IMG/VR virus record: IMGVR_UViG_3300036715_003690
Coordinates: 1-38,728 of that record
Reading direction: 5' to 3' (one strand)
Source: a virus
DNA: 38,728 nucleotides
This document shows, in pieces, positions 13,298 through 22,603 of the stretch; position 1 is the first letter of the stretch; the number at the start of each line of letters is the position of its first letter. The notes under the pieces are model-generated. The model was not told the DNA's origin. It saw only the letters and a list, made by a program, of their open reading frames with translations, and did not search any database. The position numbers and the translations under genes are program-made.

Positions 13298-13590
13298 TGG
13301 ATGAACGGTATTTTCGAAAATACTTAAAAGTAGGCGATCATGCTATTGCCAAAATGGACAATGATGATATTATGACAGGTGTCATAGGCATGATGGATGA
13401 CGAGTCTTTGTCTCTGCTTACTTTGGATGACGATAAAATGCTTGAGTTGTTTTTACTTTATGGCAGGATAGAATGGTTTGGTAAAATAACCCCGGGGCCA
13501 AAAGAAGTAAACGCGCAATTAGTGTCAATTATTAAACGAATAAACAAAGAACCTACGAATGACAACGATAACGAAAACGATAACCGTTGA
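13297..13590 (+). CDS. Hypothetical acidic protein
   Basis: This 97-residue acidic protein begins at a TAATG overlap; an in-frame TTG at 13282 is less likely. The pattern VGDHAIAKMDNDDIMTGVIG, then LSLLTLDDDKM, suggests a small beta barrel of the SH3/Sm sort. The end is a run of Asp, Asn and Glu that overlaps the QueD start by 32 bases. No known family was recognised. Its coupling to queD ties it to the modification operon. Confidence 0.6.
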   Translation: MDERYFRKYLKVGDHAIAKMDNDDIMTGVIGMMDDESLSLLTLDDDKMLELFLLYGRIEWFGKITPGPKEVNAQLVSIIKRINKEPTNDNDNENDNR

Positions 13591-13996
13591 CTATGGCCAT
13601 GCTCTGCATCTGCATAATGGTAGATGCAGGGGTATACATGGTCATACTGCTCGTATCACGATAGCCCTGGAAGGCACACCCTCACCTATTATGAAAGGCA
13701 CAGCTATGGAGGGTATGGTTCTTGATTATGGCACCGTGAAAGCTTTCCTGAAGGAGAGTATCGAGGAAACATTTGATCATAAATTAATTTTGTGCAAGGA
13801 TGATGAAAGATTGAATATGCTTTTATCTCACGCGGGTGTCTTTCAGAATATCTTGCGTGTTGAGGAAACACCCACTGCGGAGAATCTTGCTAAGCTATGT
13901 TTTCAAATTTTGAAAGAAAAATTCAATGGCTTTGCGAAAGTAAAATTTGTAGAATGGTGCGAGACTCCCACGAGTAGCGCACGTTATGAAGAATAA
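13559..13996 (+). CDS. queD: QueD, 6-carboxy-5,6,7,8-tetrahydropterin synthase
   Basis: This 145-residue member of the PTPS/QueD family carries out the second step of preQ0 synthesis, from dihydroneopterin triphosphate to 6-carboxytetrahydropterin. The zinc site is H14 (YGHAL) plus H27 and H29 in CRGIHGH, and the catalytic C23 sits in the same C-x3-HGH motif typical of QueD. Further active-site residues are D73-H74 (FDHK), PTAEN (105-109) and E132 and E135 in VEWCETP. Length and all key residues are normal, so the enzyme should be active. It opens the cluster that continues with FolE, QueE and QueC. Confidence 0.93.
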   Translation: MTTITKTITVDYGHALHLHNGRCRGIHGHTARITIALEGTPSPIMKGTAMEGMVLDYGTVKAFLKESIEETFDHKLILCKDDERLNMLLSHAGVFQNILRVEETPTAENLAKLCFQILKEKFNGFAKVKFVEWCETPTSSARYEE

Positions 13997-14010: not shown

Positions 14011-15096
14011 ATGGCTAAAGATAGAAAAATGATCATTTCTCCTGAAAAATACTTTTCTCTTGAGGATGAGAACTTTTATTGCTCTACTTGCAATTATAAG
14101 AAGCACTGTGAAAAAACAGTTGTTGTTAAAGCACCTTTCGAGCATGCGGATGCGAAACAATTCTTTCCTGATAACCCTTACGCGATAGCAACCATGTTCC
14201 CTGACATTGAAAAGTATCGTGCACCCCGGTTAGGCAAGCTTGCAGAAATACCCGTGGACTTTCCAAAGGTATCTTTCGTGACCCACCAGAAAATTGACGC
14301 GCACGAAAAAGTACTCACCTTTCCTTTGTCAAAGCTTTCAATGGGTATGGAGAAACGATTGACGAATCTTGCAAAGTCACGTCAATGCTCTTTAGGGTTG
14401 CTCATGTCAGATGATGATAAATCTTTGCTTAGTTGGTTATTCGGCAAAGAAGTCTTTCAAAGTAATGAGCAGTATCTTGGTGTCTATAATAACGAGGGTA
14501 TGAACATTGCAAGCCCTACTTACGCGTACTTGCAAAGGGATTGGACAAAGCCTTTTAGGGAGAAGGGATTTGAATATGTTATGTCTCCCACGGTAAGCTT
14601 TTTCTTTAATCAACCTGCTTGCTCAACTGTTCAGAATAGGCTCCTTAGTTATAAGTTTATCAAGGATTTGGTTGATAATGGTTTCCCAACAATACCTTGT
14701 TTTTTGTATCTTTGGGAGAGTGATGCAAAAGCTTTCGCGAATTGGATTAACAAGACGGGTTTTTCCCATGTCTATTTTCCAATTCAAATGGCACGTCAAG
14801 AAGTTTACCATGATTACGCGGTGAAACAATTCAAGCTGATCAGGTCTTTGCTGAACCCCAGTGTTAAGATAATTGTCGTTGGTGCCTCTACAGTTAGTCG
14901 TATCGTGCAGTATCACGCGATTGACAAGAACGCCTTGTACATGAACTCTTATATACCTGTTATATCCTCCCGCCGTTTGATCTGGGGCGTGAAGGAAAGT
15001 AGATACTCGACAGATCAATTTTATTTGAGTGATGACATCTTTATGGAAAACGCCGCTAATTTTAGAAAAGAATTGGCAAAGAAAGGAATCAAATAA
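14011..15096 (+). CDS. Unknown protein in the 7-deazaguanine cluster (DUF4417-like guess)
   Basis: This 361-residue protein is not firmly recognised. It starts behind TAAGGAACTTTT. The N-terminus has a possible metal site, C24-x2-C27-x5-C33 (FYCSTCNYKKHC). The C-terminal half (about 186-345) looks like an alpha/beta barrel. Its core is MSPTVSFFFNQP, then NRLLSYKFIKDLVDNGFPTIP, then IIVVGASTVSRI and a late NSYIPVISS. The pattern of a PxxS-x-F/Y strand, a Pro-bearing loop, then a helix and a G-x-P-x-I-P strand recalls DUF4417 proteins, and loosely the TIM-barrel fold of TGT/DpdA enzymes. Its position between queD and folE argues for a role in making or inserting the modified base. Function is unknown. 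Confidence 0.75.
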   Translation: MAKDRKMIISPEKYFSLEDENFYCSTCNYKKHCEKTVVVKAPFEHADAKQFFPDNPYAIATMFPDIEKYRAPRLGKLAEIPVDFPKVSFVTHQKIDAHEKVLTFPLSKLSMGMEKRLTNLAKSRQCSLGLLMSDDDKSLLSWLFGKEVFQSNEQYLGVYNNEGMNIASPTYAYLQRDWTKPFREKGFEYVMSPTVSFFFNQPACSTVQNRLLSYKFIKDLVDNGFPTIPCFLYLWESDAKAFANWINKTGFSHVYFPIQMARQEVYHDYAVKQFKLIRSLLNPSVKIIVVGASTVSRIVQYHAIDKNALYMNSYIPVISSRRLIWGVKESRYSTDQFYLSDDIFMENAANFRKELAKKGIK

Positions 15097-15097
15097 C

Positions 15098-15355
15098 ATG
15101 GGTGGCTCAAGGGCGAATCGCTCATCAGGAAAGCAAAAGGAAAGCTTCCAAACAACGGCTTCTATTCATGGACGGGAAATGAAGGTAGGTGGCACTTATA
15201 ATTTCTATAATTTACATAACAGTAAACTCATAAGTTATGATAAGGCTACAAACACTTTCAAGTTCTTCAATAGCCGTATACCGTCGAGAATTTCAAAAGA
15301 TCATACTTTTATTATTAATGACCATAACAAAGCAAGCTTCAGCTTCTTGGATTAA
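15098..15355 (+). CDS. Small hypothetical protein in the modification cluster
   Basis: This 85-residue basic protein starts at the ATG at 15098, one base after the preceding stop codon; the longer in-frame extension would lie inside the preceding gene. A Ser/Arg/Lys-rich, probably disordered N-terminus (about 1-25) precedes a beta-rich part with VGGTYNFYNLHNSKLISYD and FKFFNSRIPSRISKDHTF. It ends 2 bases before folE. No family is recognised, and it is too small for a typical enzyme. Confidence 0.65.
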   Translation: MGGSRANRSSGKQKESFQTTASIHGREMKVGGTYNFYNLHNSKLISYDKATNTFKFFNSRIPSRISKDHTFIINDHNKASFSFLD

Positions 15356-15357
15356 AA

Positions 15358-15915
15358 ATGAAAAAGCCAAATATAGCTGAAGGGGAGAAAATAATTGGTG
15401 ATCTGCTTGCTTGGCTTCAATTACCTGTTGACGGGCACACGAAAGACACACCAAAAAGGGTTGCTAAAATGTACCTGGAGCTTTTCTCCGGGCTGTATAA
15501 GAACCCACCCAAGATAACCACGTTCGAGGGTAAGGATGGGTATGTGGCAGTATCGAATATAAATTTCACTTCTTATTGCGCGCATCATTTGTTGCCCTTT
15601 TTTGGCAAGGTTGGTGTTGTATATCATTGCAGTAATCGCACCATTGTAGGTCTTTCCAAAATCGCGAGAATAATAGGATACCACTCTGCTAAACCACAGG
15701 TGCAAGAGAACCTTACCGCGGATATAGCAGAAGACATAATGAAACGCCTTCAGCCAAAAGGTATTTTCGTGGTGTGTTCAGCGGAGCATCTTTGCATGAC
15801 AATACGGGGTGTTAAAAGTATCGGGAGTGTCACGACAACATCTTGTATGCTTGGTGACATTGATAAGGCGGAGGCTCTTAATCTTTTACAAAGTAACAAA
15901 CAATTTTTTCAATAA
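15358..15915 (+). CDS. folE: FolE, GTP cyclohydrolase I
   Basis: This 185-residue enzyme converts GTP to 7,8-dihydroneopterin triphosphate, the first step towards preQ0. Visible motifs are TPKRVAKMY (31-39), SYCAHHLLPFFGKV with C74, H76 and H77, VGLSKIARI (97-105), QVQENLTADIAEDI (114-127) and SAEHLCMTIRGV (H144, C146). C74, H77 and C146 are the zinc ligands. The usual C-E-H-H-L-L-P-F has Ala in place of Glu at residue 75; other catalytic residues are kept. A phage copy next to queD and queE indicates local production of deazaguanine precursor rather than folate. Confidence 0.93.
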   Translation: MKKPNIAEGEKIIGDLLAWLQLPVDGHTKDTPKRVAKMYLELFSGLYKNPPKITTFEGKDGYVAVSNINFTSYCAHHLLPFFGKVGVVYHCSNRTIVGLSKIARIIGYHSAKPQVQENLTADIAEDIMKRLQPKGIFVVCSAEHLCMTIRGVKSIGSVTTTSCMLGDIDKAEALNLLQSNKQFFQ

Positions 15916-15930
15916 AATGTAGATACCAGG

Positions 15931-16686
15931 ATGATCGTGAAAAGGAGACGTAGTGGGATTAATAGCAATATTGCTTCGCTGTATGTGCAAGAAATTTTTG
16001 ATTCTATACAAGGTGAAGGTCTCTTAAGTGGTTTCTTGACAAGGTTTGTCAGAACGAATGGTTGCACTGTTGGTTGTGCTTGGTGTGACACTAAAAATTC
16101 TTGGAGACAAAATAAAAAATTCAAAGTGCTCTGTGCTGATGTTTACAAAAGAATAGTTGAGGGCTGGAATAAGAACGCTTGGATTTGCATAACTGGGGGT
16201 GAACCTATGGAACAAGCAGAATCAGTACATTGGCTGATTGGCAAGCTTCATAAGAATGGCTATGATTATATTTCTGTTGAGACCTCCGGGTATCCCTTCC
16301 CGGACAGGAAAGTTTTATTCGATATGCTTAATGATAATGTTTTCTTTTCTGTATCACCAAAGCTTTCTTCAGCTACAAAAGGTTCGGCTAAAATAGATGC
16401 ATCTCTTGCTCGCGCGAAGGAGGTTGTAGAATTTTGGTTATCTCCTGATATGACTTTTAATGTGCAATTGAAATTCGTTGTTGGTACTGATGCTGATTTA
16501 AGGGATTTGCGAAATATTTTTGCAACTTGTAAAGGCTTCAAATTGAATACTCTAATCTTTATACAACCCGATTACTACGTTTTTCAGAAAGATAAAACAT
16601 TGATAAATAAATTATTGTTGTTTCTTGAAGATTTTCCAAATGTTCGATTATCCACTCAGATGCACAAAACACTTGATTTAAAGTAA
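15931..16686 (+). CDS. queE: QueE, 7-carboxy-7-deazaguanine synthase (radical SAM)
   Basis: This 251-residue radical SAM enzyme turns 6-carboxytetrahydropterin into 7-carboxy-7-deazaguanine (CDG). It shows the QueE hallmarks EIFDSIQGEG (21-30), the iron-sulfur site C45-x3-C49-x2-C52 (GCTVGCAWCDT), ITGGEPM (87-93), SVETSGY, a VSPKLSS segment, QLKFVV and a C-terminal LSTQMHK. All key residues are present. The start at 15931 adds a basic N-terminal stretch (VKRRRSG); an internal start is possible. Its 3' end overlaps the -33 element of the next promoter. Confidence 0.93.
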   Translation: MIVKRRRSGINSNIASLYVQEIFDSIQGEGLLSGFLTRFVRTNGCTVGCAWCDTKNSWRQNKKFKVLCADVYKRIVEGWNKNAWICITGGEPMEQAESVHWLIGKLHKNGYDYISVETSGYPFPDRKVLFDMLNDNVFFSVSPKLSSATKGSAKIDASLARAKEVVEFWLSPDMTFNVQLKFVVGTDADLRDLRNIFATCKGFKLNTLIFIQPDYYVFQKDKTLINKLLLFLEDFPNVRLSTQMHKTLDLK

Positions 16687-16749: not shown

Positions 16750-16881
16750 ATGGGTAACTCCGCGAAAGGCAAACCGGCAGGAAAGATGATTGCCGCGAAA
16801 GGCAAAGCCACTCCGGCACGGGGCGGCAAAGTAAATAGCAAGTCCAATCCTAAAGTAGGTAAAAGGGCACGCGGCAAATAA
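16750..16881 (+). CDS. Small Lys/Gly/Ala-rich basic protein (43 aa)
   Basis: This gene encodes MGNSAKGKPAGKMIAAKGKA followed by a further 23 residues of the same kind, ending KRARGK. It is composed almost wholly of Lys, Gly, Ala, Arg, Ser and Pro and contains a repeated SAKGKPAGK / AAKGKATPA unit. The protein is strongly positive and probably disordered, like the tails of histone H1-type or Hc1-type bacterial DNA-binding proteins. It has its own promoter upstream and a strong terminator 30 bases downstream, so it is a one-gene transcript in the middle of the modification cluster. DNA compaction or binding is the best guess. Confidence 0.7.
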   Translation: MGNSAKGKPAGKMIAAKGKATPARGGKVNSKSNPKVGKRARGK

Positions 16882-16910
16882 GCCTCCCAAAATTTCCTAT
16901 GCTTCTTCTC

Positions 16911-16936
16911 AAACCCGCTGTTATGGCGGGTTTTTT
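16911..16936 (+). terminator. Rho-independent terminator
   Basis: AACCCGC (16912-16918) pairs with GCGGGTT (16926-16932) around a 7-base loop TGTTATG, with an added A-T pair at the base and a run of six T at 16931-16936. It ends the one-gene transcript at 16750. The hairpin falls within the first codons of the long frame that begins at 16899, and one base before the ATG at 16938. Confidence 0.85.
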
Positions 16937-16937
16937 A

Positions 16938-17990
16938 ATGCCCAAAGAGTATTTTTTGTATAAAATAAAAACAGTATATTACACTAATATTTGTTACATA
17001 ATTTCGGATAAAACTTTGAAGCACGTACGCTTGGACTTCGGCTCTAATCCAGAGTTGACTCGTGTTATAGTTTCGCATGAGGATGGCTTCAAATCAATAG
17101 AGGCTATTTACCACAAGACCTCTCCTTTTTTGAATAAACTCAATTATGTTCTACTGTATTGCCTTTACGTTTATGATGAGGCAGAGATTGAGGTTCCTTA
17201 TTTTCTGAATAAAAGAATGTTTTCTGTTGTTATTAGCTATTTGGAAATATTACAAAATCGGGATAAAAAAATAATTTTTAAGGAGGTCTCTTATCATGGT
17301 TTGAACATTGAGGACTCTACAAAAAGTGTCTATCCTTTTTTGGTAATGTATTCTGGTGGTAAGGATAGCACCATGATTTCTTACCTCAATTCAAACGTAC
17401 CAGAAAGCATAAGAGTTATGTACGCGGAGTTTTTCGGGGTAACTGATAGAAGAAGGAGTGACTTTGTTATAGAGGGGAGTATGTTTTCATTACTTAGAAG
17501 GGCTCTTGGGGATGACAGATATTATAAAGAAGTGCTCGTTGAATTTGCGTATCCTATTTTTTATAACGGACAAAATATTCTTGTTGGCTATGAAAAGGAG
17601 GTTTGGGATAATCTAATTCTTGTTCAAGGCTTTGATATGAAAGCTTATTATAATTCTCTTTCCCACGCGGGTAAGCATGTTGCTTCTCCAATAAGTCACA
17701 TGGATTCTTTGACTATTCTGGAGACCCTCAAGAAGATGAAGGTAGACTTCGCTCATTGTAATAGTGAAGACTTCATGGATTTTTGCTATCACTGCTTCAA
17801 ATGTGATACTCTTTACTTGATGGGCGCGAATAAAAAATTGCATGGTTTTGACAGAAAAATGTACAAGGAAGTAACGAGGGAAGAAGACGGGGCAAGTGTT
17901 GAAGCATCACTCCTTCAGCATTATTCTGATAAACCTGCTTTACTGGAATTTTTAAGGAAAATTAATACATGCAAACAGCTAAAATTTTAA
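16938..17990 (+). CDS. Divergent QueC-like PP-loop ATPase
   Basis: This 350-residue protein has a PP-loop, VMYSGGKDST (S139-G-G-K-D-S-T145), which adenylates carbonyl or carboxylate substrates. It ends with C274-x8-C283-x2-C286-x2-C289, the exact cysteine spacing of the QueC zinc site. Before it is ASPISHMDSLTILETLKKM, which parallels the SPFVHMDKTDMV of the QueC at 18729. The QueC motifs for substrate binding (RN, PDR, SCY) are missing, and an unrelated N-terminal region of about 130 residues is added. It is therefore a QueC relative with another substrate, perhaps the carboxyl or nitrile group of the deazaguanine. The in-frame ATG at 16899 lies before a terminator hairpin, so 16938 or a later start is preferred. 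Confidence 0.7.
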   Translation: MPKEYFLYKIKTVYYTNICYIISDKTLKHVRLDFGSNPELTRVIVSHEDGFKSIEAIYHKTSPFLNKLNYVLLYCLYVYDEAEIEVPYFLNKRMFSVVISYLEILQNRDKKIIFKEVSYHGLNIEDSTKSVYPFLVMYSGGKDSTMISYLNSNVPESIRVMYAEFFGVTDRRRSDFVIEGSMFSLLRRALGDDRYYKEVLVEFAYPIFYNGQNILVGYEKEVWDNLILVQGFDMKAYYNSLSHAGKHVASPISHMDSLTILETLKKMKVDFAHCNSEDFMDFCYHCFKCDTLYLMGANKKLHGFDRKMYKEVTREEDGASVEASLLQHYSDKPALLEFLRKINTCKQLKF

Positions 17991-18757
17991 CGATGGTTCG
18001 GGAGGATCGCTTTGCCATGTTCTCAAAGGTTATGACGAATCTCTTGTTGAACACGACGAGCATAAGTATAGAGTGGGAAATTCTCACGTACTCGATGGAT
18101 TTCGCGAAATTCTTCAAAACGGAATTCGCAATTGCTAAACGAAACAAACACCTTATTGACGTGCACCTTGTTTCTCATGATGTCTCCATGCCCGCGGCGA
18201 AAGCACGATGGGCTCTGTCGCACGAGGGGTATGACGTTTTTCTCGTGCTTGATGACGATGTTTTGATCGCTCAAAATGACTTTCAGAAAATAGTCGAAGC
18301 AATGGAAAAATTGGATAGTGACAAAAAATGTACCCCTGATATGATAGTCATATCCACGGTTGATGTCGAGAATGCACGTGGCTTCCCGGATTACACGGAC
18401 AAGGTTTTTTCAAACCCCGATGGTACCGACATTATTTTGAGGAAGGACATTCCACTTAAGATGTATGGCAAGGTTCGTTTTGATCATGTTGGTCCGGCGT
18501 ATGGTGTCTCGGGTACGTATATTATAAAAAGAGATTGCTTTTTAGCTCTCTACGAGTCATTCATAGCCTATAAAAAAGGTGAACGTGGTTATGACACGGA
18601 ATTATTCTTGAGTATACCGGAGGATAAACGGGTGCAATTGGGTCAGGCGACCGCGTGGCATATAGGTTGCTATGAGCCTTTTTTTAACGAGCATTGGAAA
18701 GGTATGCGGAAGGAGGTTAGTGATTATTATGAAGCCAAAGAAAGTCCTACTGTATAG
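17969..18757 (+). CDS. GT-A fold glycosyltransferase
   Basis: This 262-residue protein looks like a family 2-type, nucleotide-sugar-dependent glycosyltransferase. The strand and metal site VFLVLDDDVLI (D95-D97) is a DxD motif that binds UDP- or GDP-sugar through a metal ion. An upstream Rossmann-like start (AKILTMVREDRF), an acceptor-side segment GPAYGVSGTYIIKRDCF and a late AWHIGCYEPFFNEHW fit the fold. The start overlaps the PP-loop gene by 22 bases and its end covers the QueC start, so it is co-translated with both. Its setting inside the 7-deazaguanine operon suggests that the acceptor is the modified base or DNA; this is inferred. Confidence 0.75.
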   Translation: MQTAKILTMVREDRFAMFSKVMTNLLLNTTSISIEWEILTYSMDFAKFFKTEFAIAKRNKHLIDVHLVSHDVSMPAAKARWALSHEGYDVFLVLDDDVLIAQNDFQKIVEAMEKLDSDKKCTPDMIVISTVDVENARGFPDYTDKVFSNPDGTDIILRKDIPLKMYGKVRFDHVGPAYGVSGTYIIKRDCFLALYESFIAYKKGERGYDTELFLSIPEDKRVQLGQATAWHIGCYEPFFNEHWKGMRKEVSDYYEAKESPTV

Positions 18758-19496
18758 TGGTGGTCTTGACTCCTTTATTGCTTCTGCTTACTTGAAACCC
18801 GATATGCGGGTATACGTTCCTCTTGGGCATAGGTACCAGGAAGCTGAGATGAAGTCCATTATGAGGACAAATCATGTAGGAAAAATACATTATGCCCCGG
18901 GCATGCACATTGGGGCATTCGAAAAAAATGACGCTGAAATCCCCCTTCGGAATTCTTATCTTTGCCATGTTGCAACGAGTATGGCACTTCGTGAATACCC
19001 GGCAGCAAACAGCTACATGATTGCTCTTATTGTTCAGGAGGATGAAATGAGTATCCCTGACAGGACACAAGAATTTATGATGAACATGAGCACGCTTCTT
19101 ACAAGTCTGTCCGGGAAAAATATCATCGTGGAGTCTCCTTTCGTGCACATGGACAAAACAGACATGGTTCATTGGTACATTGAAAATTATGGCAAGTCTG
19201 GCATAGCTTCGCTCGTGAGTACACATTCTTGCTATAGCCCGGTTCGTAGTAACTCGGGTTTTATTGAATGTGGTAATTGCCCGGCTTGCTTTCGAAAATT
19301 TGTTGCTCTGGCAAACAATGATATTACAGGAAATTTCGCGGTGAATCCTGCTGAGTCAACCACGGCGCGTACTTACTTGGAGAACCTAAATAAGTATAGC
19401 GAGAAAAGACAGCACCGCATAAAGGATGCTATTGCTAAGAAAACACGACTATTTATTACGAAAGAAATTACGCATGGACGAGAAAAAAGAAGATAA
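18729..19496 (+). CDS. queC: QueC, 7-cyano-7-deazaguanine (preQ0) synthase
   Basis: This 255-residue enzyme converts 7-carboxy-7-deazaguanine to preQ0 with ATP and ammonia. Motifs: PP-loop LLYSGGLDS (10-15), IPLRNSYLCHVATSMAL, SIPDRTQEFMMN (the PDR motif), ESPFVHMDKTDMV, and STHSCYSP with CGNCPAC as zinc site. The first Cys is separated from the next by 12 residues instead of the usual 8. The ATG at 18729 is chosen because GAAGGAGG (up to 18716) is the clearest Shine-Dalgarno site in the window, 12 bases ahead, and because the fold begins right at KKVLLYSGG. It overlaps the GT-A gene by 29 bases. Confidence 0.88.
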   Translation: MKPKKVLLYSGGLDSFIASAYLKPDMRVYVPLGHRYQEAEMKSIMRTNHVGKIHYAPGMHIGAFEKNDAEIPLRNSYLCHVATSMALREYPAANSYMIALIVQEDEMSIPDRTQEFMMNMSTLLTSLSGKNIIVESPFVHMDKTDMVHWYIENYGKSGIASLVSTHSCYSPVRSNSGFIECGNCPACFRKFVALANNDITGNFAVNPAESTTARTYLENLNKYSEKRQHRIKDAIAKKTRLFITKEITHGREKRR

Positions 19497-19611
19497 ACTT
19501 GAAGGTAAAAGGATAAAATTCATACGTGCACGTGGTTCTTCCAATGGTGACCCCCATGTTACTTTAGAGTACCTGGAGCCAAATGCCGGGGTGGGTGAGG
19601 TGGCTGAATGA
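19474..19611 (+). CDS. Small hypothetical protein (45 aa)
   Basis: This 45-residue protein starts inside the QueC end (ATG at 19474). Its stop overlaps the next gene in an ATGA arrangement. After a charged start (MDEKKEDKLEGKRIKFIRAR) it has a short strand-turn-strand and ends in EVAE. The two overlaps indicate a translated linker gene. No function is recognised. Confidence 0.55.
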   Translation: MDEKKEDKLEGKRIKFIRARGSSNGDPHVTLEYLEPNAGVGEVAE

Positions 19612-20582
19612 TTTTAATAAACAGGTTGCATAAGACTGCTGATTCTTGGAGCAAGGATTTTCAGGAACGTCTTGAGGCTGTCGCGGATAATCGTGTCCTT
19701 TTTTATGGGGAGCCTATCTCCGTTTTGAGCAACTCAACGTTGTTTGAAAACCTTGCTTATTATGGTTATAAATCAATGCTTGAATTGCGTGGGAAAGTAG
19801 AAATGATCGGGCATGAGAACATCGAGAAAATAATTTTCTTGGATTCTATGCAATTGCCCTTCCAACAAATGATTGGTCTTGATAGGGAAATTCCTTTTGA
19901 GATATACGTGCACGTGTCAAAGGATTATCAAGATTATGTGCACGCTCCAGCGTACTATAAGCAAAATTCTCTTTGTACACCGATGCTCGTGTCAACTTCT
20001 TCAACAGCTTTATCTTATGGTTTGCATGAATCACAATATAGGTCTATTGGTTGCCCCTTGCTTCCTTTTCAGAATGCCTCTATTAAAAGAAGCAAGACGG
20101 TTATTTGGGCAGGAAATGATATTAACAATCCTGTAAAAGGATTTCCTGATTTTCAAAAACTAATGCGTGAATTTCCTGATTTTGAATTTCATGTTTGCAC
20201 GAGACGAATACCCTTATCCGTGGCGGAAACTCTAGCAAAGGAACATCCTAATATGGAGTTACACGTGGGACTTACTTCGGAGGAATACCAGAAGCTTGCA
20301 TCCACTTGCGAGATTATCGTGAGCACAGCCTTTTGTGAGTCCTTTGGCCTTTCCGTTATGGATGCTGTCGCAACAGGGACTATCCCTTTATGCCGAGATG
20401 TTGGTTCTTATCATGATCTGTTTCCACGGAATTTCCTGTACTCGGATATTCTTCAAGCTGATCTTTATAAAGCTCAAAGGACTGATGAGGCAGGCTTTCT
20501 TAGTTTGGAAATGGTGGTGAATCATTTCTCAGCAAAAAATGTGTACGAACGTCTTATAAATCCTATGGATTGTCACGGGTGA
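19608..20582 (+). CDS. GT-B fold (GT4-like) glycosyltransferase
   Basis: This 324-residue protein has the C-terminal half of a GT4-type glycosyltransferase. Visible segments are TVIWAGNDINNPVKGFPDF (about 164-182), FEFHVCTRR, LHVGLTSEEYQKLASTCEI (219-236), ending with STAFCESFGLSVMDAVATG (E244). In that motif the Glu and the following FG bind the nucleotide sugar. The N-terminal half is alpha/beta without a clear signature. There is no membrane segment. It is placed between QueC and DpdA, with a coupled start to the small gene at 19474. A second sugar transferase of another fold in the same operon suggests two-step decoration of the modified base, though the acceptor cannot be read from the sequence. 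Confidence 0.75.
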   Translation: MILINRLHKTADSWSKDFQERLEAVADNRVLFYGEPISVLSNSTLFENLAYYGYKSMLELRGKVEMIGHENIEKIIFLDSMQLPFQQMIGLDREIPFEIYVHVSKDYQDYVHAPAYYKQNSLCTPMLVSTSSTALSYGLHESQYRSIGCPLLPFQNASIKRSKTVIWAGNDINNPVKGFPDFQKLMREFPDFEFHVCTRRIPLSVAETLAKEHPNMELHVGLTSEEYQKLASTCEIIVSTAFCESFGLSVMDAVATGTIPLCRDVGSYHDLFPRNFLYSDILQADLYKAQRTDEAGFLSLEMVVNHFSAKNVYERLINPMDCHG

Positions 20583-20586
20583 GAAA

Positions 20587-21579
20587 ATGGAATTAATATT
20601 CGCGGGTGTGGAAGACAGGCAGATCAGGAATGATTGCTATAGCGCGGGAGTCAAGAAAGTCCTGATGTCCTATTACTATATTATTGACAAGGGTGTTCCC
20701 TTTGACGAAGTTCTCGATATGTTTCCTCTCGTTGTTCTTGATTCTGGGGCTTTCACCATGTTCTCAAAAGCACAAGATAATCACGAGAAAATTAACCATG
20801 TCAAATATCTTTCAGACTATCTCAATTTCGCATCCAAGTATATTGGGAGACTCTTTTGGGTCGCTAACTATGATGTTAACCTGCTTGTGGGGGACAAACA
20901 GGTCTATGATTGGAATAAAGAATTTGAGCAATTGGAGAAAGAAGGTCAGCGAGTCTGCTATGTCACTCACGATTATAGCCTACCATACAAGAATCTTTAC
21001 GAATACTTTGATCGTTATAACTTTATAGGTGCATCAGGTGGTATCAATTCAAAAACTGATACTGGATACTTTGAGCAAGTATACAATCTCTCCTACAGGT
21101 ACAGGAAATTGGTTCATGGGTTCGCTATGACAAACTTCGTGTCATTTGATAAATTTCCCTTGTTTAGTGCTGATTCAACCACGTATTTTAGTGGTGGTAA
21201 ATATGGCATCACATATGTCTGGAATGGGAGTTTCTTTGAGACGATTGATTACACGAAGAAGGAAGCTATTCGTAGACAGCAATTTCGTACCTGCCATAAA
21301 TGGGGTGTTGACTTTGGCAAATTCATGGATGATAATACTCGGCAGGTGAATAAATTCAATATCAATGCTTGGCTTATGAATGAGAAAAATTTTAACAGGA
21401 GAACACTGAATAGACAATGGTGGCTCACTGAAGCAGAACGCGATTTCATTAAAACGAATCCTTTTTACATGTGTACACCAAATGAGCTTGAAGTAATGCA
21501 CGGTGTAGCACCAAAGGTTGCGCCGAAAGGCCGACGTGGTAGACGAAAGAAAAAGAAAGAAGAAAATGGCAACACTTAA
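20587..21579 (+). CDS. dpdA: DpdA-like DNA-guanine transglycosylase
   Basis: This 330-residue TGT-related enzyme exchanges guanine in DNA for a 7-deazaguanine base. Signature segments are VVLDSGAFTMF (D52-S-G54), FWVANYDVN (D96), VCYVTHDYS, FIGASGGI (147-153), HGFAMTN (177-183) and FSADSTTY (D196). The LDSGAFT and SADST motifs are typical of phage DpdA, where the Asp residues serve as nucleophile and general acid. The C-terminus is a basic tail, KGRRGRRKKKKEE, that likely aids DNA binding. It follows the GT-B gene by 4 bases and overlaps the HNH gene by 14. No tRNA-queuosine role is expected, because this is the DNA-type branch of the family. Confidence 0.88.
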   Translation: MELIFAGVEDRQIRNDCYSAGVKKVLMSYYYIIDKGVPFDEVLDMFPLVVLDSGAFTMFSKAQDNHEKINHVKYLSDYLNFASKYIGRLFWVANYDVNLLVGDKQVYDWNKEFEQLEKEGQRVCYVTHDYSLPYKNLYEYFDRYNFIGASGGINSKTDTGYFEQVYNLSYRYRKLVHGFAMTNFVSFDKFPLFSADSTTYFSGGKYGITYVWNGSFFETIDYTKKEAIRRQQFRTCHKWGVDFGKFMDDNTRQVNKFNINAWLMNEKNFNRRTLNRQWWLTEAERDFIKTNPFYMCTPNELEVMHGVAPKVAPKGRRGRRKKKKEENGNT

Positions 21580-22603
21580 AGAGCAGAAAAAGAAGCAAGC
21601 AGAAGAAGACAGCAAGAAATTAACCACGAAGGAGAAGAAAAAGCTTCGTAATGAGATAACTCACAAGTTAAGGTTCGAGATTCTTGAAAGAGATCAGCAT
21701 CGTTGTAAACGCTGCGGTGCATCTCCAAAAACTGATCCCACGGTAGAATTGGTAATAGATCACATTGTGCCGCTTTCAGCTGGAGGGACAAATGACCTCA
21801 CGAATTTGGAGACGCTCTGTCATTCTTGTAACGAGGGGAAGAAGGATACTGTCATACAAAAGAAGGTTGATAAACTCGTTGTGAATCCAGTAGAATTCTA
21901 TCAGATACAGACAGAAGGTGAAATACAATCTTTCTTCCTTTCTCCTTCAAATGAAGAAGCAAGACAATGGCTATTCACAACGCATGAAAAAAATGGCACA
22001 GACTGTCCCCGTGACTGTGGTTTATGCGTGACAAAGAAGCAATTCTACAATCATTGTTTCAACATGCTTACCCGTGAGCTTAAAAGTCAAGGAGGTTCCC
22101 AGACGATCGAGGTGCGGAAGATAGAAGCCAACCCGTTATTACAGGATGACCTCATTGTTTGCAACACTTGCTATCTTGCTGGACGGTGCCCTAAATTTGT
22201 GGTGAATCAATCTTGCGTTTTTAATTTTTCGCTGGATACTGATTTTAGTGATACTAAAACTGGTATGCGTGTTCTTGTTAATATCCAAAAGGAGCGTGTT
22301 ATGCGTGCAGTCCTGAATGAGAAAATTGATGGTGGCGTTCTTGACAAGAATTTAACAAACGAGATAAGTGTACTATCCCAGCTTATGTTTAATGTTGAAA
22401 ATCTAAATTCAGACAACACGCAATCTATCGAGATAAAAGCTACCGGGTCAAAAGGCACGGGTATTCTTGCCACTTTATTTGGTGATCTCCTGCAAGGACG
22501 GTCTGCCCTGGCCCCGGTGGCTGTTCAGCAATTGCCCGCGGCAGAGGTAGTGAATCCTGTATCTGAAGTGCTAAATATGGCGAAGGTTCCTTCTAAAAGT
22601 TAA
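21566..22603 (+). CDS. HNH endonuclease fused to a Cys-rich C-terminal region
   Basis: This 345-residue protein begins with a Lys-rich helix (1-35) and then an HNH nuclease: RCKRCG (C47, C50), LVIDHIVPLSAGGTNDLTN (D65, H66, N80) and LCHSCN (C85, C88). A second region has two more Cys groups: C147, C151, C154, C164 (DCPRDCGLC) and C199, C202, C208, C217 (CNTCYLAGRC). A helical end (about 230-345) follows, with VNIQKERVMRAVLNEKI and IEIKATGSKGTG. The C-terminal layout reminds me of small proteins near phage terminases, but I cannot name the family. A free-standing homing HNH is unlikely because of the fusion. The start at 21566 is the first ATG with a sensible leader (AAGAAGAAA). Confidence 0.75.
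   Translation: MATLKEQKKKQAEEDSKKLTTKEKKKLRNEITHKLRFEILERDQHRCKRCGASPKTDPTVELVIDHIVPLSAGGTNDLTNLETLCHSCNEGKKDTVIQKKVDKLVVNPVEFYQIQTEGEIQSFFLSPSNEEARQWLFTTHEKNGTDCPRDCGLCVTKKQFYNHCFNMLTRELKSQGGSQTIEVRKIEANPLLQDDLIVCNTCYLAGRCPKFVVNQSCVFNFSLDTDFSDTKTGMRVLVNIQKERVMRAVLNEKIDGGVLDKNLTNEISVLSQLMFNVENLNSDNTQSIEIKATGSKGTGILATLFGDLLQGRSALAPVAVQQLPAAEVVNPVSEVLNMAKVPSKS

Follow-up and report, generated by a model that had tools for sequence, protein, structure and literature searches.

QueC converts CDG to preQ0 with ATP and ammonia. Cap9 attaches CDG to an N-terminal glycine, and a similar activity has been proposed for QatC (PMC13279940, PMC13329287). In E. coli QueC, mutation of R99, Y131 or Y189 abolishes activity (PMC13329287). 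The QueC fold has recently been shown to be reused for protein modification in anti-phage defence. CmoY, the asparagine-synthetase-like ligase of the CmoX/CmoY (5-carboxymethylcytosine) phages, attaches glycine to the base carboxyl of 5cxmC in DNA (PMC12783734).

The protein described here, called P0001, is a further, uncharacterised branch of the QueC fold on the phage side, and it sits inside a DNA-modification operon with glycosyltransferases. It is best read as a QueC-derived N-type ATP-pyrophosphatase with a rebuilt substrate pocket, the substrate and product of which we infer below.

The P0001 gene and its operon

The window, i.e. the whole stretch of 38,728 nucleotides that was analyzed, and an identical stretch of a 72-kb IMG/VR contig (G001) were read as phage DNA, with a DNA polymerase, a terminase-like gene and tail genes. 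G001 is a longer contig of the same phage; its locus L002 is 100% identical to the window over 21,050 bases and carries an identical copy of P0001. The source phage appears to swap guanine in its DNA for a modified guanine. The features of the operon are as follows.

13559..13996, + strand: QueD (TIGR03367 E=1e-19, below cut-off)
15358..15915, + strand: GTP cyclohydrolase I, GCH1/FolE (PF01227 E=5e-52)
15931..16686, + strand: QueE, which makes CDG (phrog_2076 E=4e-33; TIGR04322 E=1e-24, below cut-off)
16911..16933, + strand: terminator-like hairpin with a 9-pair stem, directly 5' of the P0001 start (RNA fold -13.2 kcal/mol, z = -2.9)
16938..17990, + strand: P0001, divergent QueC-superfamily PP-loop protein of 350 aa (ORF; homologue P0004 in L009; profile link to QueC)
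17352..17372, + strand: PP-loop SGGKDST, P0001 residues 139-145 (direct reading)
17586..17612, + strand: GYEKEVWDN, P0001 residues 217-225, an instance of the motif GxEKExWxN found also in P0004, aligned with the substrate-binding QueC region G-x3-D...YxDC (alignment, motif search)
17757..17804, + strand: predicted zinc site C-x8-C-x2-C-x2-C, P0001 residues 274-289 (direct reading; alignment with QueCs)
17969..18757, + strand: GT2-like glycosyltransferase, overlapping the P0001 gene by 22 nt (PF00535 E=0.006, below curated cut-off)
18729..19496, + strand: QueC (P0003), overlapping the GT2-like gene by 29 nt (PF06508 E=1.8e-16; TIGR00364 below cut-off)
19608..20582, + strand: GT-B (group 1) glycosyltransferase (PF00534 E=2e-4, below cut-off; phrog_2170 E=1e-7)
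20587..21579, + strand: DpdA N-terminal (transglycosylase) part (phrog_887 E=4e-27)
21518..22603, + strand: DpdA C-terminal part behind an HNH endonuclease domain (PF01844 E=4e-12; phrog_887 C-terminal part E=8e-18)

Between QueD and GCH1 lie a 361-aa orphan and a small ORF starting with MGGS, and a 43-aa Lys-rich ORF stands between QueE and P0001. The orphan (14011-15096) has a Cys-rich N-terminus (FYCSTCNYKKHC) and no match in any library used. The two small ORFs, one starting with MGGS (15098-15355) and the other, Lys-rich, with MGNS (16750-16881), resemble N-terminal deazaguanylation acceptors. Because of the two overlaps, P0001, the GT2-like gene and queC are probably translated together.

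P0001 consists of an N-terminal extension of ~130 aa, a PP-loop core, a four-Cys site (Cys 274, 283, 286 and 289) and a C-terminal extension of ~60 aa; an alternative in-frame ATG at 16899 would add 13 aa. Its G+C content of 35% is the lowest in the operon, compared with 41% for the window. The loop follows a beta strand (residues 134-138 in the model), as the SGGxDS/T loop does in N-type ATP pyrophosphatases. In 200,000 shuffles of P0001, the PP-loop pattern arose 63 times, the Cys pattern 28 times and both together never, so the combination is not a chance one. Slightly looser versions of both patterns were present in that order in 48 of the 1,473 ORFs of at least 180 aa from the fetched loci, a sample enriched for deazaguanine operons, and those inspected belonged to the QueC family or the P0001 family. 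L090 and other long ORFs with both motifs proved to be QueC or Gat-QueC-like. By sequence comparison, the P0001 gene is real, since an independent phage has a homologue with 30% identity over 189 aa (E=1e-13).

Relatives and family placement of P0001

No significant match to P0001 was obtained in Pfam, PHROGs, NCBIfam, PADLOC, PDB sequences or INPHARED phages, and neither PF06508 nor TIGR00364 matched it at E<=1. A scan of GTDB contigs gave no cellular relatives, nor did a scan, run without a positive control, of 396 genomes from the phylum of a Bacteroidales genome. Searching IMG/VR with DpdA uncovered two related phages, L009 and L007; no more family members came from additional scans with P0001/P0004, DpdA or QueE as query. 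The known family is rare, and comprises the identical copy from the same phage, one clear homologue (P0004) and one distant relative (P0002), the last two in other dpdA phages. The preliminary description had proposed a search for this family beside dpdA elsewhere and had named as evidence against its view a best structural match to an unrelated PP-loop family together with no such association; an association with dpdA in two further phages is what was found.

P0004, the homologue with 30% identity to P0001 (L009:6296-7201, on a 26-kb contig), has 301 aa and lies directly 3' of QueE, with the loop SSGKDS and a C-x7-C-x2-C-x2-C site. It shares with P0001 the motifs GxEKExWxN and FDRK, both of which are new relative to QueC. 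P0002 (L007:7198-7914, on a 54-kb contig; BLASTP E=6e-4) has an altered loop, SKGLES, and the spacing C-x6-C-x2-C-x2-C; it lies downstream of QueE and of GNAT and SET genes and adjoins a GT2-like gene. Glycosyltransferases are present in all three operons that hold the family (window, L009 and L007). With PF06508, neither the L009 nor the L007 contig, both possibly fragments, showed a canonical QueC; the sole match, a weak one, was to P0002 (E=0.004). Searches of the three phage records for QueF and GATase_6 genes returned just weak matches at the GCH1 gene, or none.

Several other genes were encountered in these surveys. From QueE to P0002, L007:4887-7198 encodes a GNAT-SET fusion, an Acetyltransf_6/ATE_C-like protein and two SET-domain proteins within the deazaguanine operon, which is unusual for a phage. 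The best non-member match of the P0001/P0004 profile is a QueC-like protein next to a DpdA (L011:9253-9933), with the loop SAGKES and Thr for the conserved Lys. As a possible precedent, PMC6884629 mentions a QueC-like singleton in Salmonella phage SFP10; it was dropped because the profiles did not find it in ~139 of 158 kb.

The link to QueC comes from profiles. Using HHalign, the P0001/P0004 alignment matched 14 phage QueCs at 92.4% (E=5e-7), rising to 96.4% (E=1e-9) with P0002 added, both matches covering the C-terminal module and both E-values being those of a single comparison. When the three-member profile was run against all window ORFs, the only significant non-self match was the QueC P0003 (E=3e-5), and in the fetched loci the best non-self matches were again QueCs. 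All four cysteines are invariant in the joint alignment of P0001 with QueCs. The profile link lies in the C-terminal module and the loop motif; the N-terminal half has no recognised relative.

A QueC-guided AlphaFold model of P0001, from an alignment that contained QueCs, reached a pLDDT of 59.7, with parts of the core at 70-90, whereas the two sequences alone gave 33.6. Three phage-collection rows of 29 were left out of the model alignment, as was P0002, the loop of which MAFFT had misaligned. The best viral structural matches of this model were phage 7-cyano-7-deazaguanine synthases (E=1.5e-3), and the top Foldseek PDB matches were mostly PP-loop enzymes (E>=0.02), both results being partly circular given the QueCs in the input alignment. 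With its significant profile similarity to QueC, P0001 falls within the wider QueC superfamily, a placement that is well supported at the level of sequence.

Substrate pocket and proposed activity

Like canonical QueC (PF06508, cluster 1 of PMC13329287), P0001 has an SGGxDS loop, the C(x)8CxxCxxC zinc motif, the C-terminal module (by profile) and an operon with QueD and QueE. Unlike it, P0001 has extra N- and C-terminal regions, no PF06508 match and none of the substrate motifs: VPxRN, YPDC and YxQxHxxE are absent by direct search and alignment, and RN, PDR/YPDC and SCY by direct search. The conserved Lys (K165 in E. coli) is replaced by Ser257, and the essential Tyr (Y189) after the first zinc Cys by Asn275. 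The window QueC P0003, above the PF06508 cut-off and below that of TIGR00364, is itself divergent, with the spacing C-x12-C-x2-C-x2-C, yet retains PLRN, IPDR, the conserved Lys and SCY. The preliminary description, which reported a divergent QueC-like PP-loop enzyme with the loop and cysteines of QueC, lacking RN, PDR and SCY, beside a true QueC at 18729 with a first Cys interval of 12, is borne out on each of these points.

P0001 also resembles QatC in its QueC core, terminal extensions and remodelled pocket. However, it matches neither the NF041925 (NCBIfam) nor the PDLC02214 (PADLOC) model, lacks DxW/YxxxF, HP, P(x)4TK and the long C(x)19C spacing, and has no recognised qatA/qatD neighbours; a single RxRxxF-like stretch (RRRSDF, residues 171-176) is absent from P0004. 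By the sequence tests made, P0001 is neither a canonical QueC nor a QatC. Cap9 of type IV CBASS, which uses a QueC-type fold for conjugation and not preQ0 synthesis, can be set beside P0001 as a comparison; as a minimal QueC it still has the RN and YxDC residues, both of which P0001 has lost. Gat-QueC of dG+ phages such as 9g is likewise a QueC-type enzyme beside dpdA, but it is fused to a GATase_6 domain, which is found in none of the three phage records (G001, G002, G003).

P0001 retains the PP-loop and the four cysteines and has lost RN, YPDC, Lys and SCY, in keeping with a rebuilt substrate pocket. Since QueE is in the operon and glycosyltransferases occur in all three phages, the simplest reading would be an ATP-dependent amide step on CDG or CDG-DNA. 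P0001 would adenylate a carboxyl or carbonyl group at the expense of ATP. The simplest candidate is the 7-carboxylate, either of CDG as made by the adjacent QueE or of CDG that DpdA has put into DNA. The activated group would then be transferred to an amine, giving an amide-type 7-deazaguanine derivative rather than preQ0, and the co-encoded glycosyltransferases would act next to produce a hypermodified, probably glycosylated, guanine in phage DNA. We infer that a carboxylate is activated, that an amine accepts it, in which order the steps run and how they connect with glycosylation, and the proposal as a whole, an ATP-dependent activation joined to an amine that feeds glycosylation, is offered tentatively, as a serious possibility that falls short of probable. 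Amide bonds on a base carboxyl have precedents in Cap9 on CDG (PMC13279940) and CmoY on 5cxmC (PMC12783734). The comparison with CmoY is one of proposed working logic only, the use of ATP to form an amide at the carboxyl of a base in phage DNA; P0001 is proposed to act on a different base and belongs to a different PP-loop subfamily. Counting against the proposal, the structural model is of limited quality and built with QueCs in its alignment, the N-terminal half has no recognised relative, P0002 has an altered loop, the L009 and L007 contigs are fragments and no sugar- or amine-donor enzyme was recognised.

The preliminary description had suggested that P0001 acts on another carbonyl or carboxyl group, perhaps to make an amide or amidine. 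The first part fits the presence of the gene in the L009 and L007 deazaguanine operons, where, on what may be contig fragments, a canonical QueC was not found. An amide product is plausible and an amidine less so, because a nitrile can take up ammonia and form an amidine without ATP.

Among the alternatives, P0001 could be a redundant or alternative preQ0 synthase, a QueC paralogue that evolves fast, still converts CDG to ADG or preQ0 and replaces QueC in L009 and L007; this would suit both the superfamily placement and the failure to find a canonical QueC on those two contigs. It is rather unlikely, given that P0001 has no counterparts of the R99, Y131 and Y189 essential in E. coli QueC (PMC13329287) and that the window retains a QueC with RN, Lys and SCY. 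The overlap with the GT2-like gene and the glycosyltransferases of the three operons would also be expected of a sugar-side PP-loop amidotransferase, which, by analogy with WbpG and its nucleotide sugar, would supply the adjacent glycosyltransferases with an amino or amidino sugar; this appears improbable, as the WbpG-type CxxC(x)6CxC motif is absent from P0001 and the three records contain no nucleotide-sugar enzymes (by reading) and no GATase_6 domain.

TtuA, NcsA and YcfA are among the top PDB fold matches of the P0001 model, which raises the idea of a nucleobase thiolase that activates a base (or tRNA) carbonyl and delivers sulfur via the cysteines. Those matches all have E>=0.02 with low TM-scores, the cysteines are spaced as in the zinc site of QueC, the profile link goes to QueC and no sulfur-relay gene was recognised among the scanned operon proteins, so that a thiolase is quite improbable. 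Hardest to credit is a protein deazaguanylase that, as Cap9 does, would place CDG on the N-terminal glycine of a small phage protein. The two small MGGS and MGNS ORFs of the operon resemble the MGGS (CD-NTase) and MGTS (QatB) starts (PMC13279940), and P0001 has terminal extensions, as QatC has; but the acceptor motif is a short one spotted in hindsight, no MGx[ST] ORF exists in the L009 or L007 loci that carry relatives, no CD-NTase or qatA/qatD-like neighbour was recognised and the QatC motifs are missing from P0001.

The amide reading also depends on the role of phrog_17812. This small protein, which has a QueD-like HRHLF stretch, occupies the place where QueC would be in L009 (7198-7536) and L007 (8504-8839) and is absent from the window. 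It occurs too in the deazaguanine operons of phiST, MA9V-3 and BUCT-ZZ01, with no annotated QueC in the stretch read. It may be DpdL, the CDG decarboxylase. Should phrog_17812 strip CDG of its carboxyl, no C7 carboxyl would be left to amidate, and the C7-amide reading would therefore be weaker for such phages.

The glycosyltransferases adjoining P0001, on which the preliminary description is silent, point to a longer hypermodification pathway. They recur in deazaguanine operons, since that of Synechococcus phage BUCT-ZZ01 holds, beside phrog_17812, a GT-B that is 58% identical to the L007 GT-B. It is conceivable, though doubtful, that the operon makes a glycosylated 7-deazaguanine DNA hypermodification via a C7 amide from P0001 as a QueC-derived ligase; a literature search found no description of such a guanine hypermodification. 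If this were true, phages would have for guanine what is already known for cytosine and thymine, a hypermodified form.

DpdA organization and other genes

In the window, L009, L007, L010, L011, L016 and L003, DpdA is split between two separate ORFs, one for the N-terminal part with the transglycosylase and one for the C-terminal part. The latter has acquired an HNH endonuclease domain at its N-terminus in three of them, the window, L009 and L007. In the human gut phage MT835482.1 (L004:12001-14040), ~1.26 kb breaks the DpdA match, as an intron, intein or inserted gene would. Near one contig end of G001 (60001-64614; L133:1-4614), adjacent type III restriction enzyme-like and methyltransferase-like genes were read by eye.
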